From positions 1 through 32,599 of the forward strand of contig JAFGSS010000163.1 of assembly GCA_016934555.1 (NCBI GenBank): a DNA stretch of 32,599 nucleotides, given 5' to 3'. The stretch's first letter is position 1; every line of letters begins with the position of its first letter. Shown one piece after another: positions 3,062-26,890 of this stretch. This DNA comes from Acidobacteriota bacterium (GTDB lineage: Bacteria; Acidobacteriota; UBA6911). The notes beneath the pieces were generated by a model that made no database searches, was not told the DNA's origin, and was given only the letters and a program-made list of their open reading frames with translations. The position numbers and the translations under genes are program-made.

Positions 3062-3105
3062 TGTAATCGTGCGCCCGGGCCGGCCCACCCTGACTTATCG
3101 ACCGA

Positions 3106-3134
3106 TTGCGGCGGCGCCTTCTCGGATTTACAAT
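3106..3134 (+). promoter_or_regulatory. Sigma70-type promoter, apparently leaderless, for the DUF523/DUF1722 gene
   Basis: TTGCGG (3106-3111), a 17-nt spacer and TACAAT (3129-3134) stand directly before the gene. Only six bases separate the -10 hexamer from the ATG at 3141, so the predicted +1 is at or next to the A of the start codon. AGGGG lies just before the ATG and could be read as a very close ribosome site, but it would not be transcribed if +1 is at 3141. Confidence 0.5.
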
Positions 3135-3140
3135 AGGGGC

Positions 3141-4085: not shown

Positions 4086-4123
4086 GGGATTCCGGGGGCG
4101 GACGCGTGCCCGAAAGGGAACCG

Positions 4124-5398
4124 ATGTCGGAAAGAGCGGGGAGGATGAAGAGCCGGCGGTGGACCGTCCCCCTCGGCAATTCCTTCGGGATCGCCGCCCG
4201 CACGCTCTGGGCGCACAAGCTCCGGTCGGCGCTCACGATCTTCGGCATCGTCATCGGGATCGCCGCCGTCGTCCTGATCGGCGCGACCCTCGCGGTCATC
4301 CGCGACATCGCCGCCAGGAGCACGGCCCAGGCCATCGGCGCGGACGCCTACACCATTTCCCGCGTCGCCGCCTCCGGCCGGCTGAGCCGCAGGGAGCTGG
4401 CCGACAAGCTGCGGCGGAACCCGGAGCTCTACCGGCGCGAGGCCGAGGCGCTGGTGCGGCGGGCGAGGGAAGACGCCCGCGCGGCCCCGGGGCTGGGGGC
4501 CGTCGCCGACGTCAGGGCGGGCAACCGGACCTTCCTCTCCGCCTCCATCAACGGGTCCACCCCCGAAATCCAGTCGATCCGCAACATCGAACTCGGCTCG
4601 GGACGGTTCTTCACCGAGGCGGAAAGCCGGCGCTCGGCCCCCGTCATCGTCATCGGGCAGGACCTGGTCGACGAACTCTTCCCCACCCGCGACCCGATCG
4701 GCAGGAGCCTCCGGATCCGGGGGCGTGCGCTCGAGGTCATCGGAGTCCAGAAAAAGCAGGGGGCCAGTTTCGGCTCCTCCCTCGACCGGGTCGCCTACAT
4801 GCCGATCGGGGCCTTCGAGAAGATATGGGGGAGCCGGCGCTCGGTCACCGTCTACCTGCAGCCCCGCGACCCGGCCGCCCTCGAAGAGTCGCTCGAGCGG
4901 TCGCGCGTGGCCCTGCGCCTCATGCGGCGCCTGCGGCCGGGGGAGCCCGACGATTTCGACATCCTGGTTCCCGAGGCCGACCGCGACTTCCTCCTCCGCA
5001 TCATCGGCATCGTCGGGGTCGCCGTCATCCCCATCAGTTCGCTCGCGCTCCTGGTGGCCGGCATCGTCGTCATGAACATGATGCTGGTGAGCGTGACCGA
5101 GCGGACGCGCGAGATCGGGGTGCGCAAGTCCCTGGGGGCGCGCAACCGCGACATCTTCGCCGAGATCCTGTTCGAATCGGCCATCCTCACCGCCCTCGGC
5201 GGCGCCGCGGGGCTCGCCCTCGCCCTCGTCGGGGCGCTCGGGCTGGCGCGGGCGTTCGGCGAGAGCGTGAGCGTCTCCGGCGCCTACGCGGCGCTGGCGA
5301 TCGGGATCTCCGTCCTGATCGGGTGCGGCGCCGGTTTCTTCCCCGCCTGGATCGCGTCCCGGATGACGCCGGTGGAGGCGCTGCGCCATGAGAACTGA
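4124..5398 (+). CDS. MacB/FtsX-type ABC transporter permease (first of pair)
   Basis: This is a 424-aa inner-membrane protein. One N-terminal membrane helix lies at ~35-60 (LTIFGIVIGIAAVVLIGA), followed by a large periplasmic MacB_PCD domain. Three C-terminal helices form the FtsX domain, with the family signature TERTREIGVRKSLGARNRDI near residue 325. The fold belongs to mechanotransmission ABC systems such as MacB and LolCE, which act on lipoproteins, toxins or peptides from the periplasm. I chose ATG 4124 because AAGGGAA lies five bases upstream; GTG 4106 and ATG 4145 are in-frame alternatives. The stop overlaps the next permease by 11 nt, so the two are translationally coupled and probably form a heterodimer. 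No ATP-binding subunit gene is adjacent. Confidence 0.88.
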   Translation: MSERAGRMKSRRWTVPLGNSFGIAARTLWAHKLRSALTIFGIVIGIAAVVLIGATLAVIRDIAARSTAQAIGADAYTISRVAASGRLSRRELADKLRRNPELYRREAEALVRRAREDARAAPGLGAVADVRAGNRTFLSASINGSTPEIQSIRNIELGSGRFFTEAESRRSAPVIVIGQDLVDELFPTRDPIGRSLRIRGRALEVIGVQKKQGASFGSSLDRVAYMPIGAFEKIWGSRRSVTVYLQPRDPAALEESLERSRVALRLMRRLRPGEPDDFDILVPEADRDFLLRIIGIVGVAVIPISSLALLVAGIVVMNMMLVSVTERTREIGVRKSLGARNRDIFAEILFESAILTALGGAAGLALALVGALGLARAFGESVSVSGAYAALAIGISVLIGCGAGFFPAWIASRMTPVEALRHEN

Positions 5399-6659
5399 CC
5401 CGCGCCCCGCCCGGTTCAACCGCGAAAACCTCGACTTCGCTCTCGCGAACATCCTGGCGTTCAAATTCCGCTCCCTGCTGACCATCCTCGGCATCATCGT
5501 CGGGATCGTCACCGTGGTCCTGGTCGCATCGGTCCTGGTGGGGGTGCGGCGCAACATCGCGTTGCTGTTCCAGGAATTCGGCCCGGACAACATCTTCGCC
5601 TACCACCTCAACGGAGACCCTGGCAATCCCACCATCAAGCCGGAGGAGCTGACGCGCAAACCCCTCCGGACGGAGTTTGCGCGCCTGCTTCCGGAGGCCT
5701 GCCCCTCACTCGAGGACGCCGCGGCCCAGGTCCTGGTGCCGAACCTGGTCGGCGGCCGGGCCGTCACGGCGCGGTACCGCGGAATCGAAAACACCAATAT
5801 CCAGCTGCAGGGAGCCACCTGGAACTTCGCCCGGGTCACCAACGCGGAGCTGGAGTCGGGCCGCGCCTACACCCGGGAGGAGGAGAGGCGGCGCGCGAAG
5901 GTGTGCCTCCTGGGGGCCAACGTCGCCGTCTCCCTCTTCCCCGGCGGCGACGCCTTGGGGAAAAGCATCCGGGTCGATGGCGTCCTCTACACCGTGACCG
6001 GCGTGTTCCCGAAGCGCAAGGGGGGGTTTTTGGGGGAGAACCGTCAGGACAACGTGGTCATGGTCCCGCTCAAAATCGTGGAGATGCGCTACCCCGACCT
6101 CGAAACGGTGGTCCTCTACTGCCAGGCCCGGCCCGGGGCGCGCGCCGCCGCCTTCGACGAGGTGGAGGGGGAACTTCGCCGGCTGCGCGGACTGGGCGCC
6201 GACGAGGAATCGGACTTCACCCTCAGCACCGCCGATTCGATCATCGGGCAGATCGACCGGATCACGCTGCTGGTGCAGACCGGCACGCTGGCGATCTCCG
6301 GGCTGGGGCTCCTGGTCGGGGGGGTCGGGGTCATGAACATCATGCTGATGTCGGTCACCCAGCGGACGCGCGAAATCGGCGTGCGCAAGGCGGTGGGGGC
6401 CCGCCGCCGGGACATCGTCTGGCAGTTTCTGCTCGAGGCGGCGCTGCTTACCACCATCGGGGGGCTGCTGGGGGTCCTCATCGCCGGCCTCCTCGGCCTC
6501 GTCCTGTCCTGGTTCGTCCCCAACCTGCCGGCGGTCCCCCCCGCCTGGGCCGTGGGCTCGGGCCTGGGGGTCTCCACGGGCGTCGGCATCCTCTTCGGCC
6601 TGTGGCCTGCGGTGAAGGCCGCGCGCCTCGACCCCGTGGACGCGCTGCGATACGAGTGA
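5388..6659 (+). CDS. MacB/FtsX-type ABC transporter permease (second of pair)
   Basis: This 423-aa protein has the same architecture as the gene before it: helix 1 at ~27-50 (SLLTILGIIVGIVTVVLVAS), a periplasmic domain of ~220 residues, and three C-terminal helices with TQRTREIGVRKAVGARRRDI and the family ending PVDALRYE. Its ATG lies inside the upstream gene, 11 nt before that gene's stop. The two proteins are paralogues of equal size rather than the ~800-aa fused permeases also common in Acidobacteriota. Together they would make the membrane half of a transporter whose ATPase (LolD/MacB-like) must come from elsewhere. Nothing in the sequence identifies the substrate. Confidence 0.88.
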   Translation: MRTDPRPARFNRENLDFALANILAFKFRSLLTILGIIVGIVTVVLVASVLVGVRRNIALLFQEFGPDNIFAYHLNGDPGNPTIKPEELTRKPLRTEFARLLPEACPSLEDAAAQVLVPNLVGGRAVTARYRGIENTNIQLQGATWNFARVTNAELESGRAYTREEERRRAKVCLLGANVAVSLFPGGDALGKSIRVDGVLYTVTGVFPKRKGGFLGENRQDNVVMVPLKIVEMRYPDLETVVLYCQARPGARAAAFDEVEGELRRLRGLGADEESDFTLSTADSIIGQIDRITLLVQTGTLAISGLGLLVGGVGVMNIMLMSVTQRTREIGVRKAVGARRRDIVWQFLLEAALLTTIGGLLGVLIAGLLGLVLSWFVPNLPAVPPAWAVGSGLGVSTGVGILFGLWPAVKAARLDPVDALRYE

Positions 6660-9398: not shown

Positions 9399-10229
9399 CT
9401 ACTTCCTCATCCGGTTCATGAGAAAGGCTTCGATGTTGAAGGTGGCGCCGTGGGCCAGGAGCGGCTGCCCGCCCGCGGCGTAGACCACCTGCCCGGTGAC
9501 GTAGTCGCTCAGCCCGGAAGCCAGGAAGAGGGCGGGGCCGGCGATGTCGTCGGGGCGCCCCACCCGCTCGAGCGGGACCTCCTTCTTCGCGATGGCGTCG
9601 AAGAGCGCCTCCCGCTCCGGGCCGGCGGGCACCAGCGCGTCCCAGAAGGTGGTGTCCACCGGGCCGGGGACGATGGCGTTCACGAAGATCCGCTGCGGGG
9701 CCAGCTCGAAGGCCAGGTTGGTCGACAGCCCCAGCACCCCCGCCTTGGCCGTGTGATAATGCAGGACCGAAACGCACGGGCTCACCGCCCCCATGGAGGA
9801 GACGAAGAGAATCTTCCCGTACCCGGATTTCTTCATGTGGGGGAGCACCGACATCGTGACCAGGAAGGGGCCCTTCAGGTTCAGGTCCACGACCCGGTCC
9901 CACTCCGCCTCGGTGATGTTGTCGGAGTTGCCGCGCCCCGCCGTCCCCGGGACGCCGCCGGCGTTGTTGACCAGGATGTCGATCTTCCCGAATTCCCGGA
10001 TGGCGGCCGCCGTCATCGCCTCGATTTCGTCGCCGCGGGTGATGTCGGCTTTGCAGGCGAGCGCCCGGCGCCCCCGCGCCCGGATTTCGCCCGCCACCCG
10101 CTCGCAGGCAGCCTGGTCGAGATCGTTGATGACGAGATCGCACCCCTCGTCGGCGAACCGGTGCGCGATTCCCCTGCCCATCCCGTTGGCGCTCCCCGTG
10201 ACCAGGGCGACCCTGTTCTCCAGAAGCAT
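9399..10229 (-). CDS. Short-chain dehydrogenase/reductase (SDR)
   Basis: This 276-aa classical SDR has the cofactor motif TGSANGMG (residues 11-18), NNAG at 88-91, N117, catalytic S145, Y158 and K162 (YHTAK). D36 at the end of the second strand (INDLD) favours NAD(H). The C-terminal part is slightly extended past the usual VTGQ..YAAGG segment. The enzyme oxidises or reduces an alcohol/carbonyl pair. ATG 10229 is preferred to the upstream in-frame codon at 10289 because GGGAGGG lies just before it and the family begins at this point. It is transcribed divergently from the aldehyde dehydrogenase/GRE operon across a 185-nt gap and may serve the same pathway. Its substrate is unknown. Confidence 0.9.
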   Translation of the reverse strand: MLLENRVALVTGSANGMGRGIAHRFADEGCDLVINDLDQAACERVAGEIRARGRRALACKADITRGDEIEAMTAAAIREFGKIDILVNNAGGVPGTAGRGNSDNITEAEWDRVVDLNLKGPFLVTMSVLPHMKKSGYGKILFVSSMGAVSPCVSVLHYHTAKAGVLGLSTNLAFELAPQRIFVNAIVPGPVDTTFWDALVPAGPEREALFDAIAKKEVPLERVGRPDDIAGPALFLASGLSDYVTGQVVYAAGGQPLLAHGATFNIEAFLMNRMRK

Positions 10230-10309
10230 CTGTACCCTCCCCGATTCAGCGCAAGCCGGGCCGCGGCGGACTCCGCGCCCCCGGATCACTTAGGTGAAGA
10301 CATCATTTT

Positions 10310-10414: not shown

Positions 10415-11851
10415 ATGCAGAACCCTAAAATGTTCATCGGCGGGGAGTGGGTCGACGCCCTTTCGGGCAAGACCTTCACCACCCTGAACCCCTCCACCGG
10501 CGAGGAAATCGGCCGGGTCCCGCTCGCGGACGCGGCGGACGTGGACCGGGCCGTCAAGGCCGCCCGGGCCGCCTTCCCGGCATGGTCCAGAAAAACCCAG
10601 GCGGAGCGCTCGAAGGCCCTGGTCCGGGTCGCCGCCCTCATCCGGGAACACGCCGAGGAACTGGCGCTCATGGAGGGGATGGAGCACGGGACCCCTTACC
10701 GGGACGCGTTCGGGGTGGCGATGGGGGCCGCGGACAAATTCGAGTATTGCGCCGGGACGGCGCCGACGCTGATGGGGCAGCACATCCCGGTCAAGGACGG
10801 GACGCTTTCCTACCTGCAGCGGGAGCCGGCGGGGGTGGTGGGCTTCATCATCCCCTGGAACCTCCCCACGATCATGACGGCCGTCAAGCTCGCGCCCGCC
10901 TTGGCCGTCGGCAACACCTGCGTGCTCAAACCCCCCAGCATCAACTCGATGATCGGGCTGAAGTTCGCCGAGATCTTCGCCCAGTCCGCCCTGCCGCCCG
11001 GAGCCGTCAACATCATCACCGGCCCGGGCGGGAGCGCCGGCACGGCCCTGGTCACCCACCCCGGGGTCGACATGATCGGGTTCACCGGCAGCAGCGAATC
11101 GGGCAAGCGGATCCTGGCCGACGCCGCCGGGACCTGCAAGAAGTGCGTGATGGAGCTCGGGGGGAACAACCCCGTCATCATCATGGAGGACGCCGACCTC
11201 GACGCCTCGCTCAAGGTCCTCGGCTGGCGGCAGTTCAACAACAGCGGGCAGCACTGCTCGGGACCAGGCCGGTACTACGTCCACGAGAAGGTGTACGACG
11301 CCTTCATCGAGAAATATGTCGCCTACGCCGGGGCCGTCGCGGTCGGCAACCCCGCCGACCGGAGCGTCACCATGGGCCCCCTCGTCAGCCGGGAGCACCA
11401 GGCCAAGGTGGAAGGCTACATCCGCAAGGGGGTGGAGGAGGGGGCGCGCCTCGTCTTCGGGGCGGACAAGCCGGCGGCGCTCGCCGGAGGGTTCTTCGTA
11501 ATGCCCACAATCCTCGCCGACTGCACCCACGACATGACCGTCGCCCGGGAGGAGATCTTCGGTCCCGTGGCCGTCCTCCTGAAATACACCGACCGGGACG
11601 ACATCGTGGCGCTGGCCAACGACTCCCCCTTCGGCCTGTGCGCCCACGTCTGGACGGGCGACATCGCCCGGGGAATGAAGCTGGTCAACGACCTGCACGT
11701 CGGGTCGGTCTTCATCAACTGCCAGATGCTGACCAACGAACAGCCCTGGGGGACCAGCATCAAGGAGAGCGGGATCGGCAAGGAGGGGAGCCTGCACGGC
11801 ATGGCCGAGTTCACCGACCTCAAGCTGGTCTGCATTAATTACGATGTCTGA
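10415..11851 (+). CDS. Aldehyde dehydrogenase (first of tandem pair)
   Basis: This 478-aa NAD(P)-dependent aldehyde dehydrogenase begins the GRE operon. The active-site Cys is C281 (NSGQHCSGPGR) and the general base Glu is E247 (VMELGGNNP). The cofactor-binding segments IIPWNLP (~147) and GFTGSSESG (~224-232) and the C-terminal EEIFGPV motif are intact. It converts an aldehyde to its acid; the substrate cannot be inferred. A strong ribosome site, AAGGAGG, lies seven bases before the ATG. The next gene is a second aldehyde dehydrogenase 27 nt downstream. The two are clearly diverged, so this is not a recent duplication. An aldehyde made by the downstream glycyl radical enzyme or alcohol dehydrogenase is a reasonable substrate (inference). 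Confidence 0.93.
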   Translation: MQNPKMFIGGEWVDALSGKTFTTLNPSTGEEIGRVPLADAADVDRAVKAARAAFPAWSRKTQAERSKALVRVAALIREHAEELALMEGMEHGTPYRDAFGVAMGAADKFEYCAGTAPTLMGQHIPVKDGTLSYLQREPAGVVGFIIPWNLPTIMTAVKLAPALAVGNTCVLKPPSINSMIGLKFAEIFAQSALPPGAVNIITGPGGSAGTALVTHPGVDMIGFTGSSESGKRILADAAGTCKKCVMELGGNNPVIIMEDADLDASLKVLGWRQFNNSGQHCSGPGRYYVHEKVYDAFIEKYVAYAGAVAVGNPADRSVTMGPLVSREHQAKVEGYIRKGVEEGARLVFGADKPAALAGGFFVMPTILADCTHDMTVAREEIFGPVAVLLKYTDRDDIVALANDSPFGLCAHVWTGDIARGMKLVNDLHVGSVFINCQMLTNEQPWGTSIKESGIGKEGSLHGMAEFTDLKLVCINYDV

Positions 11852-11878: not shown

Positions 11879-13366
11879 ATGGCACACGATTACAGGATTC
11901 TGATCGACGGGAAACTGGTCAAGCCGGTCCGGGGCGGGACCATGGAGATCATCAACCCGGCAGACAACACCGTCGTCGCCGTCGTCCCCAAATGCAGCGA
12001 GGAGGACGTCGAACTGGCGGTCGCGGCCGCCCGGAGGGCGCAACCGGGGTGGAAGGGCACCTATATCGGAGCCCGGAGCGAACTCCTCATCCGGCTCGCG
12101 GCCATCCTGCGCGAACACCAGGACGAACTGGTGCCGCTCGAGACGATGCAGTACGGCGGCCCGATCAGCAAGACCAGCCGCTTCGACATCCCCTTCGCCC
12201 CGGCGGAGCTGGAGTACATGGCCGGACTCGGCCGGAGCATGACGGGGCACACCATCAGCGCCGACCCGGACGCCCGGGTCATGACCGTGCGTGAGCCGAT
12301 CGGGGTGGTGGGGCTGATCACCCCCTGGAACTTCCCCCTGGTCACCGCCGTCTCCAAGCTGGCGCCCGCCCTGATCTGTGGCAACACGGTGCTTTTGAAG
12401 CCCCCCTCCTGCGCCCCGCTGACGGTCCTGAAGCTGGGGGAATACGCCGTCGAGGCGGGCTTCCCCCCCGGCGTCGTCAACATCCTGGCCGGGCCCGGCT
12501 CCACCGTGGGGGAGGCGATCGTACGCCACCCCGGCGTGGACAAGATCAATTTCACCGGGGATTCCTTCGTGGGCAAGCGCATCCTCGAACTGGCCAGCCA
12601 GAAGGTCATGCCGGTCGGGGCCGAACTCGGGGGGAAGAACCCGATGATCGTGCTCGACGACGCCAACCTGGACGGGGCGGTGGAAGGCGCCGCCTACGCC
12701 GCCTTCTTCAACTCCGGGCAGAACTGCGGCTCCCCCAGCCGGTTCTACGTCGAGGCGGGGATCTACGACCGGTTCGTCGAGAAATTCGTGGCGGCGGCGG
12801 GCCGGATCACCGTCGGCAACCCGATGGACCCGGACACCATGATGGGCCCGCTCGCCTACAACGCCTGCCGCGACAACGCCGAGCGGCACATCGCGCGGGC
12901 GAAGGAGCAGGGGGCCAGAATCCTCCTCGGGGGGGAGCGCCCGAACACCCCCCAGACGAAGGACGGCGCCTTCGTCATGCCCACCATCTTCGAGGTCTAC
13001 GATAATTCGATCGACCTGATGCAGGAGGAGATCTTCGCCCCCGTGGTCGGCGTCATGAAGGTCGGGAGCGCCGACGAGGCGGTCGAGCGCGCCAACGACA
13101 GCCGCTACGGCCTCTGCGCCTCGATCTGGACGAACGATTACCGGAAAGGGATGCTGCTCGTCGACCGGCTGAAGGTGGGGACCGCCTGGATCAACCAGCA
13201 CCTGGCCATCGTCAGCGAAACCCCCTGGGGGGGGCAGAAGGAATCGGGCTGGACCAAGGAGAACTCCATCCTGGTGCTCGACGAATACACCTACCAGAAG
13301 CACGTGTGGATCCACCTGTCGGAAACGCCCAATACCTTCTGGAAAGAACAGATAGCCCTGGACTGA
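11879..13366 (+). CDS. Aldehyde dehydrogenase (second of tandem pair)
   Basis: This 495-aa aldehyde dehydrogenase family protein has catalytic C283 (NSGQNCGSPSR) and E249 (GAELGGKNP). The Rossmann segment ITPWNFPL and the motif EEIFAPV are present. The C-terminus is longer than in the first copy, ending with aromatic-rich sequence around WIHLSETPNTFWKEQ. The start has AGGAGG five bases upstream. Two non-identical paralogues side by side could form a heteromeric enzyme, or handle two aldehydes of one pathway. Its place between the first copy and the iron alcohol dehydrogenase supports a shared alcohol-aldehyde-acid sequence. Confidence 0.93.
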   Translation: MAHDYRILIDGKLVKPVRGGTMEIINPADNTVVAVVPKCSEEDVELAVAAARRAQPGWKGTYIGARSELLIRLAAILREHQDELVPLETMQYGGPISKTSRFDIPFAPAELEYMAGLGRSMTGHTISADPDARVMTVREPIGVVGLITPWNFPLVTAVSKLAPALICGNTVLLKPPSCAPLTVLKLGEYAVEAGFPPGVVNILAGPGSTVGEAIVRHPGVDKINFTGDSFVGKRILELASQKVMPVGAELGGKNPMIVLDDANLDGAVEGAAYAAFFNSGQNCGSPSRFYVEAGIYDRFVEKFVAAAGRITVGNPMDPDTMMGPLAYNACRDNAERHIARAKEQGARILLGGERPNTPQTKDGAFVMPTIFEVYDNSIDLMQEEIFAPVVGVMKVGSADEAVERANDSRYGLCASIWTNDYRKGMLLVDRLKVGTAWINQHLAIVSETPWGGQKESGWTKENSILVLDEYTYQKHVWIHLSETPNTFWKEQIALD

Positions 13367-13426: not shown

Positions 13427-14611
13427 ATGCAAAGCGTATTTTCCAGCCCCAACCCCATTCTTTTCGGCCCCGGTTCGGCCGAGCTGACGGGAGAAAAACT
13501 CAAGGGCCTCGGCTGCACGAAGGTCCTGGTGGTCTACGACCCGGGAATCCGGGATGCCGGGATCGCCGATAAAATCGTCGGCATCATCGAAGCCGCGGGA
13601 ATCGAGGTCGTCCGCTTCGATCGCGTCGAAGCCGACCCCCCGGACTGGATGGTGGAGGAGGCCGGGGCCCTCGGCGTGCGGGAGCAGGTCGACGGCGTGG
13701 TCGGTTTGGGAGGGGGAAGCTCGCTCGACACGGCGAAAGGGGCAAAGCTCCTCCTGACCAACCCCCCGCCCATCAGCCAGTATTTCGGGCGCGAAGGGGT
13801 CGTCACCCGGCCCAGCAAGCCGCTGGTCGTCATCCCCACCACGGCGGGGACGGGGAGCGAAACGACCCCCGGGGGGGTGATCACCGATACGAAGAAGGGG
13901 ATCAAGACCAACATCGCGGGGGTGGGGTGCCGGATCGACCTCGGCATCGTGGACCCCGAACTGACCGTCGGCCTCCCCCCGGCCGTCACCGCCGCGACCG
14001 GTATGGACGCCCTCTGCCACGCGGTCGAGTCGTACACCTCGGCGCTGTCGAACAGCTTCGCCGAGATCACCGCGCGGGAAGCGATCCGGCTGGTCGGCAA
14101 ATACCTGGTCCGGGCCTATGAAAACGGATCCGACATGGAGGCGCGCGAGGGGATGATGCTGGCCTCCACCCTGGGGGGGATGTCGATGTCCGGCCCCCTG
14201 TGCCACCTGGCCCACGATATCGGCAAGACCCTGGGGGCGAAATTTCACGTGCCGCACGGCAACGGCTGCGCCTCCTGCCTGCCGCAGGTCCTGGAAGCGG
14301 TCGCCGAGGCCGTGCCCGAAAGGGTCCGCTATGTCGCCGAGTGCCTCGGGGCCGAGATCCCGGCCGGCGCCTCCGCCGGGGAAATCGGGGCGGCGGCGCG
14401 CGCGACGGTCCAGGCCCTCATGAAGCGGATCGAACTCCCGAACCTCAGGTCGTTCGGCCTCAGGAAGGAAGAGATCCTGGCCGTGGTGCCGGAAGGGGTC
14501 GAGATGATGCAGCAGGGGCTCACCCGGCTCTTCGGGCGGGGGACCTCGCCGGTGCCGGCCACACGGGAACGGGTGACGGACATCGTCTCCCGGGCCTACG
14601 ACGAAAACTGA
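13427..14611 (+). CDS. Iron-containing (group III) alcohol dehydrogenase
   Basis: This 394-aa enzyme is of the FucO/AdhB type. GGGSSLDTAK at ~94-103 binds the cofactor, and TTAGTGSE at ~138-145 is conserved. The metal ligands are D194 and H198 (GMDALCHAVE), H263 (LAHDIGK) and H277 (HVPHGNG), at essentially the family's usual numbering. It interconverts an alcohol and an aldehyde or ketone with NAD(P)H. The start follows GGAGGGAGG. A six-base inverted repeat (13389-13394 with 13419-13424) encloses that ribosome site. Only 11 nt separate its stop from the GRE start, so the two are tightly coupled. Confidence 0.93.
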   Translation: MQSVFSSPNPILFGPGSAELTGEKLKGLGCTKVLVVYDPGIRDAGIADKIVGIIEAAGIEVVRFDRVEADPPDWMVEEAGALGVREQVDGVVGLGGGSSLDTAKGAKLLLTNPPPISQYFGREGVVTRPSKPLVVIPTTAGTGSETTPGGVITDTKKGIKTNIAGVGCRIDLGIVDPELTVGLPPAVTAATGMDALCHAVESYTSALSNSFAEITAREAIRLVGKYLVRAYENGSDMEAREGMMLASTLGGMSMSGPLCHLAHDIGKTLGAKFHVPHGNGCASCLPQVLEAVAEAVPERVRYVAECLGAEIPAGASAGEIGAAARATVQALMKRIELPNLRSFGLRKEEILAVVPEGVEMMQQGLTRLFGRGTSPVPATRERVTDIVSRAYDEN

Positions 14612-14622
14612 AGAGGGGAAAA

Positions 14623-17169
14623 ATGGCAGAAAAGGCGGGATTGGATATGTCCACCAACGAAACCGGGGTCGACCCCGAGGAAATCCGCAAGGTCCAGGTC
14701 CTCACCCCCAGGCTCCAGAAACTTAAGCGGGAGTGGGAGGAGGCCGAACCGCAGGTCTACGTGGACGACACCCTCCTGTTCACCGAGTCGTGGCGGGAGA
14801 CCGAGGGGCTCCCGCTGGACATCCGCTGGGCGAAGGCGCTCGAGAAGCGGCTGCTCGAATGCCCCGTCGTCATCCGGGACGGGGAAATCGTGGTGGGATC
14901 GCTGACCAAGTTCATCCGGGGCAACGGCACCCTCTGCGCCATGAAGCCGCGCGAAATCCTGGAAATGTGCGAGAAGGGGAAATTCGCCCGCAAGACGAGT
15001 GACACCGAGTCGACGAAGATCACGCCCGAGGACCTCGCGGCGCTGCGGGCGGACGCCGAGTACTGGATCGAGCACATCCCCCAGGTCAGCACCGTCAACG
15101 CCGCCCTCGAGTACGACATGGGGCCCGGCGTGTTCGACCTCCTGTTCGACACCGGGTGCGTGTTCGAGGGGCGCGGGGTCCGCTACAAGATGGACCGCGG
15201 CCTGTTCCAGAATTACAGCGCCTACGGCGGGGGGGTGGCCCAGGTCAGCGCCCGATGCATCGAGGTGGGGCTCAACCACGTCATCGACCTGTGCCGGAAG
15301 GAGCGCGAGCGGATGATGCTCGAGGGGGACGAGCGCTCCCACGGCTCGGCCCAGTTTTTGCGTAAGTACTGGCTGCTCGAGGCCTGCATCCTCTCCTGCC
15401 GCGCCTTCATCAGGTACGCCGAGCGGCACGCGTGGCTCGCGCGCTCCGAGGCAGCGAAGGAAACGCGGGGCTGGCGCAAGGCGGAACTGCTGCGCATCGC
15501 CGAGGCGTGCGAACGCTGCCCGGCCGAACCGCCGCGCGACTTCTTCGAGGCGGTCCAGTGCGTGCGCCTCTACCACCTGGTCTGCTGGAAGGAGAGCTCC
15601 GACCGCCCCGAGGTCCCGATCGGGCGGCTCGACCAGATCCTCAACCCCTACTACGTGAAGGACAAGGCCGAGGGGAAGATCACGCCCCAGGGGGCGGCCG
15701 AACTCCTCGGCGCCCTCTGGCTGAAGATCCGCGAGTGCGAGAACCTGGTGACCATCCCCCGCTCCCAGCGGGCGGCCCCCGGCTCGCTCCTCCCCAACAT
15801 CACCCTGTGCGGGGTGGACGCCGAGGGGCGCGACCTCACCAACGAGGTCTCCTGGCTGGTCCTGGAGGCGATGGCGCAAGTCAAGCTCTCCGAGCCCGCC
15901 ATCTACATCCGCTACAACCCCAACATGGACCCGCGCTTCCTCCTGCACGCCCTGCGCTGCAATGTCGAGTTCGGCGGGGGCAACCCCGCCTTCCTCAACG
16001 ACGCGTTGGGGACCCAGCGCTATCTCGACCGGGGGGTCCCGATCACGGACGCCTGCGACTGGAACTCGAGCGGCTGCCTCGGCTACCACCTCGACTGCAT
16101 GGAGCATCTCGGCGGGGGGCACAACATCAACCAGATCAAGCTGCTCGAGCTCGCCCTCAACGACGGCTTCGACCCCCGGACGCAGAAGCAGCTCGGCCCG
16201 AAAACGGGGGACCCGAAAACCTTCGCCAGCTTCGACGACGTCATGGGCGCCTACCTGCGGCAGCTGGAGTATTTCGTCCCGGTGCTGCACCGGATCAAGG
16301 TCCTGACCCTCTGCACCGAGGTCGCCGACGGTCCGATGAGCGGACTGCGGTGCGCCATGCAGTTCGAGGACTCGATCCGAGAAGGGCTCACCCCGAAGGA
16401 GGGGGGCGCGCGCTACCCCGAGGGGAGGACCTCCTGGCTCGGAAGCCGCGGGATGGTCGACATCGCCGACAGCCTCGCGGCGATCAAGAAACTGGTCTTC
16501 GACGAGAAGAAGGTCACTATGGGGGAGCTGCTCGAGGCCTGCGCGCGGAACTGGGAAGGGCACGACGCGCTCCACCAGATGTGTCTCAACGCGCCCAAGT
16601 ACGGCAACGACGACGAATACGTCGACTCCCTCTACGACCGGCTCTCCACGGAGGTCCCGGAGATCATGCAGCGGTGGATCGACCCGATCACGGGCAAGAA
16701 GCCGATCCTCTTCATCGGGGCGGCGGCCGGGCACGTGGCGATCGGCAAGGCCGTCGGCGCCCTCCCCAACGGCCGGCGCGCGGGCACCCCCGTCAACGAC
16801 GCCGCCTGCTCCGTCATGCCCGGCATGGACGTCAACGGTCCGACCGCGGCCATCAACTCCGCGACCAACGGGCCGTACGCGCGGGAATTCTGCGGCTACG
16901 CCATGAACATGAAGTTCTCCAAATCGGTCCTCAACACGGAGGAAAAGCTCGAAAAGCTCTCCTGGCTGGTCAAGGCCTTCATGAAGCGGGGGGGGTGGCA
17001 CATCCAGTTCAACATCCACAGCCGCGAGGAGCTCCTCGACGCGCAGAAGCACCCGGCCGAGCACAGGAACCTGCTGGTCCGGGTCGGCGGCTACAGCGCC
17101 TATTTCATCGACCTGCCGCCGGAGCTGCAGAACGAGATCGTCGAGCGCTCCATGCACGACCGCCTCTGA
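14623..17169 (+). CDS. Glycyl radical enzyme of pyruvate formate-lyase superfamily, unknown substrate
   Basis: This 848-aa protein has the PFL-like barrel over most of its length. A C-terminal glycyl radical motif reads RVGGYSAYF, with the radical on G823, 25 residues from the end. The thiyl Cys is C485 (NSSGCLGYHLD), giving a Cys-to-Gly spacing of 338, normal for the family. Dehydratase, lyase and decarboxylase members usually have a Glu two residues after the Cys (GCVE); here the sequence is C-L-G, with E494 the nearest Glu. It therefore does not fit choline TMA-lyase, diol dehydratase, isethionate lyase or hydroxyphenylacetate decarboxylase signatures. The activase gene follows after 57 nt containing a strong hairpin. 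The enzyme would be cytoplasmic and oxygen-sensitive. The reaction cannot be named from the sequence. Confidence 0.92.
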   Translation: MAEKAGLDMSTNETGVDPEEIRKVQVLTPRLQKLKREWEEAEPQVYVDDTLLFTESWRETEGLPLDIRWAKALEKRLLECPVVIRDGEIVVGSLTKFIRGNGTLCAMKPREILEMCEKGKFARKTSDTESTKITPEDLAALRADAEYWIEHIPQVSTVNAALEYDMGPGVFDLLFDTGCVFEGRGVRYKMDRGLFQNYSAYGGGVAQVSARCIEVGLNHVIDLCRKERERMMLEGDERSHGSAQFLRKYWLLEACILSCRAFIRYAERHAWLARSEAAKETRGWRKAELLRIAEACERCPAEPPRDFFEAVQCVRLYHLVCWKESSDRPEVPIGRLDQILNPYYVKDKAEGKITPQGAAELLGALWLKIRECENLVTIPRSQRAAPGSLLPNITLCGVDAEGRDLTNEVSWLVLEAMAQVKLSEPAIYIRYNPNMDPRFLLHALRCNVEFGGGNPAFLNDALGTQRYLDRGVPITDACDWNSSGCLGYHLDCMEHLGGGHNINQIKLLELALNDGFDPRTQKQLGPKTGDPKTFASFDDVMGAYLRQLEYFVPVLHRIKVLTLCTEVADGPMSGLRCAMQFEDSIREGLTPKEGGARYPEGRTSWLGSRGMVDIADSLAAIKKLVFDEKKVTMGELLEACARNWEGHDALHQMCLNAPKYGNDDEYVDSLYDRLSTEVPEIMQRWIDPITGKKPILFIGAAAGHVAIGKAVGALPNGRRAGTPVNDAACSVMPGMDVNGPTAAINSATNGPYAREFCGYAMNMKFSKSVLNTEEKLEKLSWLVKAFMKRGGWHIQFNIHSREELLDAQKHPAEHRNLLVRVGGYSAYFIDLPPELQNEIVERSMHDRL

Positions 17170-17226: not shown

Positions 17227-18138
17227 ATGAATGCCGTCGAAGGCATGGTTTTTAATATCCAGCGATACAGCATCGACGACGGCCCCGGCGTCCGCACCAC
17301 CGTCTTCCTCAAGGGGTGCCCCCTCTCCTGCCTCTGGTGCAGCAACCCCGAGTCGCTCGACCCGCTCCCGGAGGTGACCTGGCGCTACACCTCCTGCCGC
17401 CGCTGCGGGACCTGCGTCGCCGCCTGCCCCGAGGGGGCCATCGCCCTCACCGACGACGGCATCCGGATCGACCGGATCAGGTGCAGCCGCTGCGGCAGCT
17501 GCGTCGCGGCCTGCCTGCCGGGGGCGCTCGCGCTCTCGGGCAGAAAAATGACGGTCGATGAAGTCTGGAGCGTCGTCAGGAAGGACCGGGACTACTACGA
17601 GGTCTCGGGGGGGGGCGTCACCTGCTCCGGCGGGGAGGTCCTGGCTCAGCCCGAATTCGTCGCCGCCCTCTTCCGGCGCTGCCGGGCGGAGGGGATCCAC
17701 ACCTGCGCCGACACCTCCGGCTGGGGGAGCCCCGAAGCGATGGAAACGGTGCTCGGGGAATGCGACCTGGTCTACTTCGACCTGAAGCACATGAACCCGG
17801 CCGAGCACCTGAGGCTGTGCGGGCGCTCGAACGAGCCCATCCTCCGAAACCTCGGGCTGACGGTCGCGCGCGGGGTCCCCCTGGTGGTACGCCTGCCGCT
17901 CGTCCCCGGCTGCAACGACACGGCCGAAAACCTCGCCGCCACGGGCGCCGCCGTCGCGCGCCTGGCCGCCGGCGCCGAGGTCCACCTCCTCCCCTATCAC
18001 CATTACGGGGAAAGCAAATACCGGATGCTGGGGAGGGAGTACCCGCTCCCGGAGGTGGAGAGCCCCGCGCCGGAAGCGCTGGAGCGGGCGAAGGCCATCA
18101 TCGAATCGTACGGGTTGAAATGCGACATTAAAAAGTAG
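17227..18138 (+). CDS. Glycyl radical enzyme activase (radical SAM)
   Basis: This 303-aa protein installs the glycyl radical on its partner by reductive cleavage of S-adenosylmethionine. The radical SAM cluster is C31-x3-C35-x2-C38 in the PflA-type segment FLKGCPLSCLWC. An inserted ferredoxin domain holds two further 4Fe-4S clusters: C57, C60, C63, C67 and C86, C89, C92, C96. This is typical of activases for GREs other than PFL itself. The glycine-rich SGGGVTCSGGE segment is also present. The ribosome site is weak (AAAGG about nine bases upstream), and the gene lies behind a strong hairpin, consistent with lower expression than the GRE. It is followed 14 nt later by the B12 mutase. Confidence 0.95.
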   Translation: MNAVEGMVFNIQRYSIDDGPGVRTTVFLKGCPLSCLWCSNPESLDPLPEVTWRYTSCRRCGTCVAACPEGAIALTDDGIRIDRIRCSRCGSCVAACLPGALALSGRKMTVDEVWSVVRKDRDYYEVSGGGVTCSGGEVLAQPEFVAALFRRCRAEGIHTCADTSGWGSPEAMETVLGECDLVYFDLKHMNPAEHLRLCGRSNEPILRNLGLTVARGVPLVVRLPLVPGCNDTAENLAATGAAVARLAAGAEVHLLPYHHYGESKYRMLGREYPLPEVESPAPEALERAKAIIESYGLKCDIKK

Positions 18139-18152
18139 AACGGAGAACGGCC

Positions 18153-20066
18153 ATGATCAGAGTCAGGCAGGAACGGATCGACGACGCGGCTTTCGCCCGC
18201 ATGCGCCGGGAGGTCCTCTCGGCCTGGCCGACGGGGCGGGAGGTCGATCTCGACGAGGCGGCCGAATATCAGCGGAAAATGCCGGAGGGGAAGAACTTCA
18301 CCAAGGTCCTGGCCGGCTACCGGGCCTCGGGCACGATCGGCCTCTTCCCCCGCTCCGGGGTTCCCGTCGTCGAGGAGGAGATCCGGCTCCTCCGGGCCAT
18401 GAACGGCGCCGGTGTCCGGCTCTTCCCCTTCACCACCGATTCCTACACCCGCAACCTGCAGCTCGAGAAGGCGCAGAAGGGGCTCGAGGAGAGCATCCGG
18501 ACCGGGAAAGCCAAGCTGAACGGCTATCCCATCATCAACCACGGCGTCTCCGTCACCCGGCGGGTGGTGGAATCGTGCGACGGCGCCTTCGACCCCCGCA
18601 GTTCGCGCGTCGCCAACAGCTTCGTCGGCGAAATCGCCTTCGCCTCCGGCATGACGGCGATGCCCAACAGCTTCTTCGGGTGGATCGGCGGGTACGACAA
18701 GACGGCGACCCCGGAGGAGTGCATCGAAACCGCCCAGTACCTCGGCCGGCTGATCGGCTGCTACGCCGACCGCGGCGTCGTCATCAGCACCGACACGCAC
18801 GGCTGGCTCCCCAACGGCGTCGTCCCGATGTACGTCAACATGGCGACCCAGATCATCGAGGCGCTCGTGAGCGCCTGCCAGGGGGTCCGGAGCGTCGTCC
18901 CCCTGACCAATTTCCAGGGGAACATCGCCCAGGACATCGCCGACATCCGCGTCTCGGAGCGGCTGTTCCGGAAATACCTGGACCGGTTCGGCTTTCACGA
19001 CACCCTTATCCCCGGCGTGATCGGGAACCAGTCCTCCCTCTTCCCCTTCCCCCAGGACATCGGCAGGGCCTTCGGCTACATCAACTACACCGCCATGGTG
19101 GCCGCCATGACGCCCCTGGCCGCCTGCTCGGTCAAGACGGTCGACGAGGCGCTGGGGGTCCCGAGCATCGAAAGCCACGTCCAGACCTACCGCTCGGCCC
19201 ACTGGATCTTCAACATGATGCGGCAGCAGCAGTTCGAGCCCGATTCGCCCGCGATCCGGCAGGAGGAGCGGATGGCGGAGCTGGCGGTGACGGCCATCCT
19301 CGACCGGGTCATCGAGATGGGGGACGGCGACGTCGCCGTCGGGACGGTCCGCGCCATCGAGGCGGGGGTGCTCGACTCCCCCTTCTCCATCAACATCTAC
19401 CCCAAGGACCAGGTCCTGGGGGCCCGCGACCTCCGGGGGGCGTGCCGCTACATCAAGTACGGGAACCTCCCGATCCCGGAGGAGGTCCGGGAGTACAACG
19501 ACCAGAAGATGCGGGAGCGGGAACTGGCGGAGGGGTCCAGGCTCGACATGAAGACCTCGGTGGCCGATTTCTGGGCCCTGGCCGAGGGCGCCGTGCACGG
19601 CACCGTAAACCGGGCGGAGGCGGAGCCCCAGACTCTCGCCCTGTCGCGCCGACCCGTGGTGGTGACGGGGACCGTCGGCGTCGATTCGCACGTCATCGGC
19701 ACCAAGTTTCTCTCCTGCGTCCTGCGCGAGCACGGCATCCGGGTGATCGCCCTGGGGGCCCAGACCCCGCCCGAGGAGTTCATCCAGGCGGCGGCCAAGA
19801 ACGGCGCCGACGCCATCATGATCACCTCGCTGTACGGGATGGCGCGGATGGACCTGGAGGGCTTCCGGGAGCAGTGCACCGAGGCGGGGATCGGCGGCAT
19901 CCTGCTCTACATCGGCGGCATTCTCGGGATCGGCGCCCGCAATTTCCGGGACGACGAGGCCGCCTTCAGGCGGCTCGGGTTCGACCGGGTCTACCCCCCG
20001 CAGTCGGACCCGGTCCTGTCGGTCCGGGACCTGGTCGCCGACCTCGAGGCAGGGGGCAGGCTGTAA
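18153..20066 (+). CDS. Glutamate-mutase-like B12 enzyme, single-chain E-S fusion
   Basis: This is a 637-aa protein. Residues ~1-485 match the catalytic E (epsilon) subunit of glutamate mutase, and ~498-637 match the cobalamin-binding S (sigma) subunit, with the B12 motif D511-x-H513-x-x-G516. Glutamate mutase normally has separate E and S chains; single-chain 2-methyleneglutarate mutase has a similar total length. Numbered against Clostridium cochlearium GlmE from memory, the carboxylate-binding Arg claw is kept (R67, R100, R149). The amino-group contacts Glu171 and Tyr177 are P171 and W177, while Tyr181 is kept as Y181. The enzyme should rearrange the carbon skeleton of a dicarboxylic acid, probably one without an alpha-amino group. 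No methylaspartate ammonia-lyase or MutL/GlmL-type gene is nearby. A ribosome site (GGAGA) precedes ATG 18153. Confidence 0.88.
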   Translation: MIRVRQERIDDAAFARMRREVLSAWPTGREVDLDEAAEYQRKMPEGKNFTKVLAGYRASGTIGLFPRSGVPVVEEEIRLLRAMNGAGVRLFPFTTDSYTRNLQLEKAQKGLEESIRTGKAKLNGYPIINHGVSVTRRVVESCDGAFDPRSSRVANSFVGEIAFASGMTAMPNSFFGWIGGYDKTATPEECIETAQYLGRLIGCYADRGVVISTDTHGWLPNGVVPMYVNMATQIIEALVSACQGVRSVVPLTNFQGNIAQDIADIRVSERLFRKYLDRFGFHDTLIPGVIGNQSSLFPFPQDIGRAFGYINYTAMVAAMTPLAACSVKTVDEALGVPSIESHVQTYRSAHWIFNMMRQQQFEPDSPAIRQEERMAELAVTAILDRVIEMGDGDVAVGTVRAIEAGVLDSPFSINIYPKDQVLGARDLRGACRYIKYGNLPIPEEVREYNDQKMRERELAEGSRLDMKTSVADFWALAEGAVHGTVNRAEAEPQTLALSRRPVVVTGTVGVDSHVIGTKFLSCVLREHGIRVIALGAQTPPEEFIQAAAKNGADAIMITSLYGMARMDLEGFREQCTEAGIGGILLYIGGILGIGARNFRDDEAAFRRLGFDRVYPPQSDPVLSVRDLVADLEAGGRL

Positions 20067-20102: not shown

Positions 20103-20567
20103 ATGACCGAATCCAAGTACGGCCAATACATCGTCACCGAAGACCTGATGCCCCCGGAACCGGAGGCCTGGGTGAAGTCGATGGAGGACCAGGCGAAGGA
20201 GGGGAAGATTCTCGACCGCACGATGCTGCTGGGCATCATGGACTCCATCGTGCCCGGCTGCTCCCTCTTTGCCGGGTGCGAGATCCTCTGGGGCCTCCCG
20301 GGCGGGAAGCCGGTGGCCATCGAGATCCCGCACAGCCACGATTTCGACGAGGTCATCGGCTTCGCGGGGACCAACCGGAACTACCCGCGCGACCTCTGCG
20401 GGGAGATCGAGTTCCACATCGGGGGGGAGACGCACACCCTCACCAAAACCTGCCTCCTCTTCGTCCCCAAGGGGGTGGAGCACTGCCCCGTGGTCTTCAA
20501 GAGGATCGACACCCCGATCTTCATGTTCGAGGCGGCCAACCACCAGCAGTACGTGAAGAACCTTTGA
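20103..20567 (+). CDS. Cupin-domain protein
   Basis: This 154-aa cytoplasmic protein has a single cupin barrel at ~70-150. The metal site is complete: H77, H79 and E83 in HSHDFDE, and H127 in PKGVEHCP. An N-terminal extension of ~65 residues has no recognisable motif. Cupins with this site bind a divalent metal and may act as isomerases, decarboxylases, lyases or ligand sensors, so the exact role is open. Its position 36 nt after the B12 mutase, with a strong GGAGGAG ribosome site, suggests a step or sensor in the GRE/mutase pathway. It has no DNA-binding domain, so it is not itself a transcription factor. Confidence 0.82.
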   Translation: MTESKYGQYIVTEDLMPPEPEAWVKSMEDQAKEGKILDRTMLLGIMDSIVPGCSLFAGCEILWGLPGGKPVAIEIPHSHDFDEVIGFAGTNRNYPRDLCGEIEFHIGGETHTLTKTCLLFVPKGVEHCPVVFKRIDTPIFMFEAANHQQYVKNL

Positions 20568-23619: not shown

Positions 23620-23997
23620 CTATGCCGATTTCCGGACGCTCCGGGTGACGATGATGTCGGTGTCGCAGCCGGCCGGCCGGCTGAGGACCACCGCCCCGAT
23701 CTCCACGGGGGCGTCGATGACGACCCTCTGGATCTCCCCCATGACGTCCATGATCCGGGCCAGCGGTATGGGACGGTCGGTCCGGACGCTCGCCAGGGGG
23801 GCGTCCCCCCCCCGCACCCGCACGCTCGAACTGATCGTGCGCATCGGGTTCAGGATCTCCTGCCGCACCCAATCTTCCCCCTTCGGGCACACGCTCCCCT
23901 CGACCTTGGTGATCACGGGGGTTTCGTCGTCGTCCACGTAGGCCACCAGCGGGCAACCGTTGGGGCAGAGCACGCACGTATACTCTTTCCTGATCAT
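23620..23997 (-). CDS. DUF1667 protein, small redox partner
   Basis: This 125-aa protein begins with a Cys-rich segment, C8-x2-C11-x3-C15 and C37 (SVCPKGE), able to bind an iron-sulfur cluster. A ~70-residue domain follows. DUF1667 proteins are usually encoded with a GlpA-like dehydrogenase and an FAD/NAD oxidoreductase, exactly as here, and probably carry electrons between them. The start overlaps the stop of the upstream oxidoreductase in an ATGA (23994-23997), so the genes are translationally coupled. Confidence 0.88.
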   Translation of the reverse strand: MIRKEYTCVLCPNGCPLVAYVDDDETPVITKVEGSVCPKGEDWVRQEILNPMRTISSSVRVRGGDAPLASVRTDRPIPLARIMDVMGEIQRVVIDAPVEIGAVVLSRPAGCDTDIIVTRSVRKSA

Positions 23998-25259
23998 TCT
24001 ACCGACACCTCCAGGGGGGAGCCGTCCGCGCCGGCCCCCTTCTTGACGGGGATCCGGATCATCTCCGCCGGGTGCAGCCGCATCATCTTCTTCCTCCGGA
24101 TCTCCCTCCCTCCCCCGTCCCGGATCACGACCGTCCTGTCACGCCAGGGAGCGGTCACGCGCAGGGAGAGAATGAAGTCCCGCTCGCCCGAAATGGTCTG
24201 GGGGAGGACGTAGCGCACCCCCTCCCCCGCCCGGACCGGCGTTCGCCGCCGGGGCTCCTCGCGCCGCTCCTGCACGTAGGCGGCGGCGAACCGCCCCGCC
24301 TCTTCCGCCTCCACCGACACCCAGTCGGCCAGGTCGTGCACGTGCAGCACGTTGCCGCAGGCGAAAATGCCGGGGACTCCCGTCATGAACGTGTCGTCCA
24401 CCAGCGCCCCCCCCGTAACCGGGTCCATCGCCACCCCGGCCTGGACCGTCAGCTCGTTTTCCGGGATCAGCCCCACCGACAGGAGGAGGGTGTCGCAGGG
24501 GACGAGGCGTTCGGTCTCCGGGATCGGAACCCGGTCCCCGTCCACCTGCGCCACCCGGATCGCCTCCAGCCGCCCCTTGCCGATGATGTCGGTCACGGTC
24601 GTGTTCAGGAAGAGGGGGATGTTGTAGTCGTTGAGGCACTGCTGGATGTTGCGCGGCAGGCCGCTCGAATAGGGGAGGATCTCGAACACCGCCTCCACGC
24701 GCGCCCCCTCGAGCGTCAGGCGCCGCGCCATGATCAGGCCGATGTCGCCGGAGCCGAGGATGCACGCCCTCCGGCCCACCATGATGTTTTCCAGGTTGAT
24801 GAGGTTCTGGGCCGCGCCGGCGGTGTAGACGCCCGCGGGGCGGTGCCCGGGGATGGAGATCGCCCCCCGGGTCCGTTCGCGGCAACCCATGGCCAGGATC
24901 ACGGCGCCGGCCTCGACGTGCCGGAGCGCGCCGCGGGCGCTCACCTCGAGCACCCGGTCGGAGGAGAGGGAGAGGACGATGGTGTTGTCCATCACCTCGA
25001 CCCCCGCGCCCGGCAGCCTGCGGATGTAGCGGTCGGCGTACTCGGGGCCGGAGAGCGCCTCCTTGAACGCGTGCAGCCCGAAGCCGTCGTGGATGCACTG
25101 GTTCAGGATGCCCCCCAGGATCCGGTCGCGCTCGACGAGGAGCACCTCCTTGCAGCCCGCCTCCCGGGCCGCGATCGCGGCGGCCAGCCCGGCGGGCCCC
25201 CCGCCGATGACCACCACCTCCCTCTGGATCTTTTCGATCGGGGATGCCTTAGAGTTCAT
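23994..25259 (-). CDS. FAD/NAD(P)-binding oxidoreductase of the GlpA-like module
   Basis: This 421-aa flavoprotein has two dinucleotide folds. GGGPAG at 19-24 binds FAD, GSGDIG near 170 binds NAD(P), and GIFACGNVLHVHDLAD near 303 is the C-terminal FAD-contact motif. It resembles the middle subunit of three-part systems with DUF1667 and a GlpA/LhgO-type dehydrogenase. There it would move electrons between the substrate flavin and NAD(P). The C-terminal ~90 residues form an extra beta-rich domain. The ATG lies 11 nt inside the end of the upstream gene. Confidence 0.9.
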   Translation of the reverse strand: MNSKASPIEKIQREVVVIGGGPAGLAAAIAAREAGCKEVLLVERDRILGGILNQCIHDGFGLHAFKEALSGPEYADRYIRRLPGAGVEVMDNTIVLSLSSDRVLEVSARGALRHVEAGAVILAMGCRERTRGAISIPGHRPAGVYTAGAAQNLINLENIMVGRRACILGSGDIGLIMARRLTLEGARVEAVFEILPYSSGLPRNIQQCLNDYNIPLFLNTTVTDIIGKGRLEAIRVAQVDGDRVPIPETERLVPCDTLLLSVGLIPENELTVQAGVAMDPVTGGALVDDTFMTGVPGIFACGNVLHVHDLADWVSVEAEEAGRFAAAYVQERREEPRRRTPVRAGEGVRYVLPQTISGERDFILSLRVTAPWRDRTVVIRDGGGREIRRKKMMRLHPAEMIRIPVKKGAGADGSPLEVSVE

Positions 25260-26739
25260 GGGCCTGCCCTCCTTTGTCCGGGCGCATGTTCCCCACGAAC
25301 ATCGGGGAATCGGCCCCTCGCTTGAGAAAATCTTCCGGATCCCACCCGAATTCGTCCCGCAGGAGGCGCACGATGCGGGGGATGCAGAAACCCCCCTGGC
25401 ACCGGCCCATGGAGGCGCGCGCCCGGTACTTGAGGCTCACCATCGTCCGCGCCCCCAGGGGGTTGCGGATGGCGTCGATCACCTCCCGCTTGGTGATCTT
25501 CTCGCACCGGCAGATGATTTCGCCGTAGTCGGGGTCCTCGGCGATCCGCTCCGCCTTCTCTTCCGGCGGGAGTTCCCAGAAGAAATCGAGCGATCCGGGC
25601 CGCACGGGGTTGAACGCGGGGTCGGGGAGGAGCGCCAGGTGGTTTTTCACCATCCCCACCACCATCTCGGCGATGGCGGGAGAAGAGGTCAGCCCCGGGC
25701 TCTCGATCCCCACCAGGTTGACGAACCCCTTGAGGTCCTTCCGGTCTTCAATGACGAAATCCTTGTTCCCACCGACCTCGGGAGGCGTCTGCTTGGCCCG
25801 GGTGCCGGCGAAATTGCGGATGTAGTCCGACTGCCGGATGGAGGGGAGCAGGCGCTGGCATTCGCGGCGGAGCCGGGCCATGACGTCGGAAGTACAGGCG
25901 AAATCCTCGGGGTCGTCCAGGTACTCGGCCGTGGGGCCGATCAGGATGTTCCCGTCCACGGTCGGGGTCAGGTGCGTGCCCCACCCGGGCGCGTTCTTCT
26001 TGGGCGCGGGGTAGACCAGGGCCGTCAAGGTGCCGTCCAGGCGCCGGTCGAGGACATAATACTCGCCGCGGCAGGGATAGATCTCGTATTCCCGGATGCC
26101 GACCATGCGGCAGACGTCGGCCGCGAACAGGCCCGAGGCGTTGACCAGGACGTCGGCCGTGAAGGTATCCCCGGCCGCGGTGCGCACCTCCCAGCGCGGC
26201 TCCTGCCGCGTGATCGCCGCAACCTTCTGCCCGAGGTGGAAATCCACGCCGTTGGCCAGGGCGTTTTCCGCCAGGGCGATCGTCAGGTTGTAGGGGGAGA
26301 CAATGGCGCTCGTGGGGGAATAGAGCGCCCGGTAACCCTCCACTCCCGCCTGGATCCGCTGCATCCGGTCGCGGTCGATCACCTCGAGCCCCGGGACGCC
26401 GTTGGCGTCCCCCTGCTCCTTGAGGTGGTCGAGCATCGGTTCGTCCTCCTCGTCGAGCGCGACCGTCAGCTTCCCGATCCGCTTCATCTTCACCTTCAGG
26501 TCCCGGCAGAGGTCGTCCATCATGGCGTTGCCCCTGACATCGAGGATGGCCCGCAGCGTCCCCTGGGCGTACTTGAACCCGCAGTGGAGCACGCCGCTGT
26601 TGCGGCAGCTCGCCCCCATCCCCACGTCCGCTTCCTTTTCCAGGAGCGCGGCGCGCACGCGGTAGCGTGACAACTCCCGGGCGATGGCGCATCCGACCAC
26701 CCCGCCGCCGATGATCAACACCTCGTAGCTATGCTTCAC
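25249..26739 (-). CDS. GlpA/LhgO-like FAD-dependent dehydrogenase with BFD-type iron-sulfur domain
   Basis: This 496-aa protein has an N-terminal FAD fold (GGGVVG at 11-16) and the DAO-family segment SCRNSGVLHCGF. A C-terminal [2Fe-2S] BFD-like domain reads ICRCEKIT, then GRCQGGFC. Relatives oxidise glycerol-3-phosphate or L-2-hydroxyglutarate. No glycerol kinase, GlpF or other glycerol gene is nearby, so the substrate stays open. I chose GTG 26739 because AGAGGTG lies six bases upstream and the FAD motif then falls at the usual position; TTG 26757 is an alternative. It is the first gene of an overlapping three-gene unit (11-nt and 4-nt overlaps). A 2-hydroxyacid oxidised here could link to the dicarboxylate mutase, but that is speculation. 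Confidence 0.88.
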   Translation of the reverse strand: MKHSYEVLIIGGGVVGCAIARELSRYRVRAALLEKEADVGMGASCRNSGVLHCGFKYAQGTLRAILDVRGNAMMDDLCRDLKVKMKRIGKLTVALDEEDEPMLDHLKEQGDANGVPGLEVIDRDRMQRIQAGVEGYRALYSPTSAIVSPYNLTIALAENALANGVDFHLGQKVAAITRQEPRWEVRTAAGDTFTADVLVNASGLFAADVCRMVGIREYEIYPCRGEYYVLDRRLDGTLTALVYPAPKKNAPGWGTHLTPTVDGNILIGPTAEYLDDPEDFACTSDVMARLRRECQRLLPSIRQSDYIRNFAGTRAKQTPPEVGGNKDFVIEDRKDLKGFVNLVGIESPGLTSSPAIAEMVVGMVKNHLALLPDPAFNPVRPGSLDFFWELPPEEKAERIAEDPDYGEIICRCEKITKREVIDAIRNPLGARTMVSLKYRARASMGRCQGGFCIPRIVRLLRDEFGWDPEDFLKRGADSPMFVGNMRPDKGGQAHEL

Positions 26740-26890
26740 TGTCGGCACCTCTCGCAATCGTTGTCTGGTCGACCATGGTTATCCAACACTTCAAAGCATG
26801 CCATATCCCGCTAAAAAGACAAAGGGGATTTGGGCCGAAAATTGCGCCCGGATGGTGTACCCTGTCGCCATATCTGCGAGGTTGCGGCCC

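Follow-up and report, generated by a model that had tools for sequence, protein, structure and literature searches.

The closest described relative of the enzyme treated here is the adenosylcobalamin (AdoCbl)-dependent glutamate mutase GlmES of Clostridium cochlearium (PDB 1cb7, 1i9c and 6h9e). In its E chain, Arg66, Arg100 and Arg149 form a carboxylate-binding claw, Glu171 and Tyr177 contact the amino group of the substrate, and Lys326 and Glu330 bind the adenosyl ribose; no paper stating the substrate-contact residues of GlmE was found in the open-access literature. A second AdoCbl mutase, 2-methyleneglutarate mutase of Eubacterium barkeri, acts on a non-amino C6 dicarboxylate, and we know of no glycyl radical enzyme (GRE) in its pathway. 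Among the GREs, the eliminases (glycerol and propanediol dehydratases, HypD, IslA and HpsG) are the described enzymes to which the GRE of the locus studied here is compared; in glycerol dehydratase, the residues with known roles include E435, H281, S282 and D447. No account of a GRE paired with a glutamate or methylaspartate mutase was found in the open-access literature, and B12 radical enzymes and GREs are usually treated as alternatives that replace each other (PMC8473912). Here, the two appear as a fixed pair.

The DNA analysed is a stretch of 32,599 nucleotides from an Acidobacteriota genome, hereafter the window. Seven genes follow one another on its plus strand with short gaps: two aldehyde dehydrogenases (10415-11851 and 11879-13366), an iron-containing alcohol dehydrogenase (13427-14611), a GRE (14623-17169, start inferred), the radical SAM activase of the GRE (17227-18138; TIGR02494, 339.7 bits, above cut-off), the mutase (18153-20066), 14 bp further on, and a small cupin protein (20103-20567). 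A divergent short-chain dehydrogenase (9399-10289, minus strand) has a 73% orthologue near the cluster in one related locus (L037). In our reading, to which we give roughly two chances in three, the mutase is an AdoCbl-dependent carbon-skeleton mutase that has been redirected to a non-amino dicarboxylate and works in one pathway with the upstream GRE.

Orthologues of the alcohol dehydrogenase occur at 62-75% in seven partner genomes, and the second aldehyde dehydrogenase is found at 57-60% also in genomes of a sister cluster associated with CoA-transferases; both were rejected as obligate partners, because at the thresholds applied roughly half of the partner genomes lack each of them. The cupin, with orthologues at 72-85% in several partner genomes, was likewise set aside as a specific partner: its family is large and is also represented in some genomes without the GRE. 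Elsewhere in the window lie a conserved-looking redox triad on the minus strand (23620-26757), made up of a DUF1667 protein, an FAD/NAD oxidoreductase and an FAD protein resembling GlpA/type 2 glycerol-3-phosphate oxidase; a 2-thiouracil desulfurase domain joined to DUF1722 (3069-4085); and, within 4106-6659, a MacB/FtsX-type permease (5388-6659) preceded by an open reading frame of similar-looking translation (4106-5398).

The mutase reading frame is intact and encodes a fused GlmE-GlmS protein of 637 aa. Pfam recognises Met_asp_mut_E (PF06368) at residues 43-481 (1.3e-132) and a B12-binding domain at residues 502-591; in alignments, the GlmS-type C-terminal domain extends over residues 501-633 (19653-20051, plus strand) and contains DSHVIG, the DxHxxG motif of B12 domains (D511-x-H513-x-x-G516). 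With glutamate mutase (6h9e/1cb7) the protein is collinear over residues 5 to 483 by phmmer (E 7.7e-89), at about 33-34% identity, and the fold matches that of the C. cochlearium enzyme (6h9e_B/1cb7_B) with a TMt of 0.85. Its S domain passes the cut-off of NF002612, the model for methylaspartate mutase S (153.5 vs 110), and its E part misses the equivalog cut-off of TIGR01503 for the E chain (344.2 vs 390.1 bits).

The first-pass annotation had equated R67, R100 and R149 with the claw arginines R66, R100 and R149 of GlmE, and had read Glu171 as replaced by Pro, Tyr177 as replaced by Trp, and Tyr181 as kept. All of these assignments were borne out, as they fall in the same columns in the phmmer alignment and in a 30-sequence MAFFT alignment; because the two alignments agree, no equivalent of Glu171 or Tyr177 is hidden elsewhere by a shift. 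On the plus strand, R67 is encoded at 18351-18353 and R100 at 18450-18452. R149 opens the segment R149-S-S-R152 (18597-18608), which stands in place of R149-H-G-T152 in GlmE, so that the claw arginine is kept, H150 is lost, and a new R152 is found in most members. Residues 171-181 (18663-18695) read PNSFFGWIGGY in place of EGGGISYNVPY.

To place these changes, six glutamate mutases were compared with 19 members of the window mutase clade. P171-N-S-F-F-G-W177 is invariant across the other clade members sampled, in the 30-sequence as well as a 20-sequence alignment. The glutamate mutases have 182 invariant columns; the clade, too, is invariant at 91 of them, and at 28 of these 91 it carries a different residue. 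The tightest cluster of such switched columns is 171-180, with 8 of 9 switched (hypergeometric ~1e-6; none of 60 permutations reached this value). The invariance of the motif and the clustering of the switches mean that the change in the pocket is neither chance nor an oddity of a single genome.

The rewriting extends beyond the residues listed in the first-pass annotation, and includes H150S, G151S, T152R, N178I, P180G, F216H, P218W, T220P, H291Q and W293S, among others. Near-invariant switches include H150S, T152R, N178I, R213T and W293S; position 216 is Phe or Tyr in glutamate mutases vs His throughout the clade; and Glu171, Tyr177, Asn178 and His150 are all lost across the whole clade. The pocket gains four aromatics (F174, F175, W177 and W218) and one arginine (R152). 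Unchanged are Arg66, Arg100, Arg149, Tyr181, Asn123, Lys326 and Glu330. Judged from the alignments, the predicted carboxylate and adenosyl contacts are kept in the clade and the predicted contacts to the ammonium group are lost. With the amino-group site replaced and both the claw arginines and the radical-generating parts retained, the substrate most likely lacks an alpha-amino group. The prediction of a non-amino C5 dicarboxylate is thus supported in its first part, while the limit to C5 or to any one acid is weakened, as the new aromatics, R152 and the changes beyond the amino-group site suggest that the substrate may be larger. AlphaFold models, which cover close relatives only, have pLDDT below 50 at mutase residues 171-183 and are too poor at the active sites of both enzymes for ligand placement.

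In the mechanism that we propose, the protein would be an AdoCbl-dependent carbon-skeleton mutase on the glutamate mutase scaffold, with the radical-generating parts (the DxHxxG B12 domain and Lys326/Glu330) retained and a bulky, uncharged wall where the amino-group site had been. It would rearrange a non-amino dicarboxylate by hydrogen abstraction, fragmentation and recombination. The GRE would share its pathway, one enzyme making or consuming the substrate of the other, with aldehyde and alcohol dehydrogenases flanking the two. Such a switch of substrate within the glutamate mutase fold would make substrate recognition in B12 mutases testable.

The genomic setting of the mutase also departs from that of glutamate mutases. 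Methylaspartate ammonia-lyase adjoins five of the six reference enzymes (5 of 5 comparison plasmid loci; the sixth is C. cochlearium GlmE), whereas no match to it was found in the genome from which the window comes (G000, 96.6% complete) or in its congener G005. In four genomes there were partial matches, barely above the cut-off, that took in only the C-terminal end of the profile, a pattern expected of other members of the enolase superfamily. The route from glutamate through methylaspartate to mesaconate is therefore absent from the source genome. GlmL, the reactivating chaperone, adjoins the mutase in most relatives (named by eye), and no orthologue of it was found in the source genome. 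In sum of likenesses, the window mutase shares with GlmES the fold, the claw, Tyr181, Lys326/Glu330 and the B12 motif; unlike GlmES, the clade has a single fused chain in most members, a replaced amino-group site and surrounding pocket, no ammonia-lyase partner and a constant GRE partner.

The GRE and activase genes directly upstream, which the first-pass annotation left out of account, are the strongest clue to the function of the mutase. The GRE carries all the marks of its class: the fingerprint Cys (codon 16075-16077, plus strand, in SGCLGYHL), the RVxGY glycyl site (radical Gly codon 17089-17091, plus strand, in RVGGY) and a radical SAM activase; the codon of an invariant Arg is at 15604-15606 (plus strand). 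It shares fold, radical sites and activase with the glycyl radical eliminases, at only ~30% identity to solved relatives, and by its sequence it is a new subfamily. Every member has SGCLGYHL; at the corresponding site, paralogues from these loci or genomes read GCVE or GCQE. The Glu two residues past the Cys, a hallmark of dehydratases and eliminases, is thus Gly in all subfamily members, and when the GRE is aligned with glycerol dehydratase, Gly stands opposite both E435 and D447, Arg opposite H281 and Pro opposite S282. Assignment to the classical GRE dehydratases was rejected for want of the catalytic Glu; with the other three positions altered as well, the usual elimination chemistry is unlikely, and the chemistry is probably new. 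A second, different GRE with a cupin gene nearby lies near the cluster in two related loci (L035, 14610-17078; L115, 16455-18929).

The pairing of the two enzymes holds across genomes. All 17 genomes examined that have a mutase of the window clade also carry the window GRE subfamily, which was never seen without the mutase. Whole-genome searches of 15 mutase genomes, picked for having the mutase, returned a GRE orthologue at 60-86% in every one (the G068 gene lies in two parts on separate contigs), with the next GRE at 37% at most; several of these genomes have the GRE although it is unlinked to the mutase. Two further samples were not picked in this way. Among 394 genomes of the order of Sporobacter, which contain Sporobacter and one more of the 15, GRE and mutase are confined to the same two genomes (Fisher 1.3e-5); a third mutase match, at 37%, is of another kind. 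Within the genus of the source genome, both are confined to G000 and G005.

GRE, activase and mutase are contiguous in many loci of Bacillota, Bacteroidota, Spirochaetota and a deltaproteobacterial metagenome-assembled genome (MAG), and in many loci GlmL follows as a fourth consecutive gene. Mutases with 62-81% identity turned up at 34 loci in a scan of genome contigs, in the same groups and in Actinomycetota, and the clade spans five phyla. Genomes with the pair come from termite gut, rumen, digesters and sediments, and include that of the cultured Sporobacter termitidis; the pair thus gives access to an undescribed anaerobic route of carbon and to a GRE with probably new chemistry.

What this route may be is suggested by the one isolate, S. 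termitidis DSM 10068, which carries the GRE-mutase cluster. This organism is reported to use only a narrow set of methoxylated aromatics for growth and to cleave their rings (PMC4585845). Near the module in relatives are BaiCD-like flavoenzymes, short-chain dehydrogenases, cupins, aldehyde:ferredoxin oxidoreductases, MmgE/PrpD and CaiB, several of them named by eye; circumstantially, these neighbours suit a pathway in which a ring is first reduced and opened and dicarboxylates are processed afterwards. It is conceivable, though we hold it only tentatively, that the mutase and the GCLG-type GRE follow directly on one another in a hitherto undescribed anaerobic pathway of at least five phyla, acting in series on a non-amino dicarboxylate in the fermentation of products of reductive cleavage of plant-aromatic (e.g., gallate-type) rings. 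The role in plant-aromatic fermentation, drawn from the physiology of one isolate and from neighbours named by eye, is plausible and the most speculative element of our reading. A paper on the phloroglucinol pathway names neither Sporobacter nor any mutase or GRE. Upstream of the Sporobacter cluster there is also a CaiB-type CoA-transferase (L113, 14179-15453), whose matches to models of formyl-CoA and succinate-glutarate CoA-transferases all fall short of the cut-offs.

Other assignments of the two enzymes were weighed. The mutase might in effect be a 2-methyleneglutarate mutase, interconverting 2-methyleneglutarate and 3-methylitaconate in a pathway other than the nicotinate fermentation of E. 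barkeri. The comparison was made by described function: the E. barkeri enzyme (Mgm) is an AdoCbl mutase of a non-amino dicarboxylate, as the window enzyme would be. The single-chain architecture and the lost amino-group site fit a methylene substrate, and MmgE/PrpD and HpaI-type aldolase genes (named by eye) lie near some relatives; however, nicotinate-pathway genes were not recognised in the neighbourhoods read and the constant GRE partner is left unexplained, so that we regard this identity as improbable. Slightly less probable still is that the GRE adds fumarate in the manner of X-succinate synthases, or runs in reverse, with the mutase turning a 2-substituted succinate into a 3-substituted glutarate as a CoA-free analogue of alkylsuccinate metabolism. 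The missing dehydratase Glu (GCLG vs GCVE) and the three arginines retained for two carboxylates agree with such a scheme, but the GRE scores nearer the eliminases than the benzylsuccinate or methylalkylsuccinate synthases (BssA/MasD) by both sequence and fold, and no small subunits of the Bss/Mas type were noticed beside it. That the mutase still acts on glutamate or another amino acid through an unusual pocket is very unlikely, for although the claw, Tyr181 and an S domain above its cut-off would allow it, the E part falls short of its own, four pocket residues are gone clade-wide and the source genome has no methylaspartate ammonia-lyase.

The reading as a redirected mutase is drawn for a clade that is well separated in the tree (support 100/100, branch length 1.88); the exact branching is less sure, because long branches meet at the split from the sister clade, of which the tree tool gave a warning. 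This sister clade comprises mutases with Ala171 and Ser177, encoded at loci L067-L070 in four genomes of the genus (G009, G008, G007 and G003). They resemble the window mutase in their ~48% identity, in the loss of Glu171 and Tyr177 and in having neighbours like the second aldehyde dehydrogenase and the short-chain dehydrogenase. They differ in that E and S are separate genes, that they lie between CaiB-type CoA-transferase genes with OYE, enoyl-CoA hydratase and MmgE/PrpD alongside, and that the genomes are without the window-type GRE; they probably belong to another undescribed mutase pathway. Fusion of the two chains is also seen in a protein of G040 (L008, 1039-2979), which joins them in S-E order and keeps Glu171 and Tyr177; this suggests that a mutase of the glutamate type underwent fusion independently.
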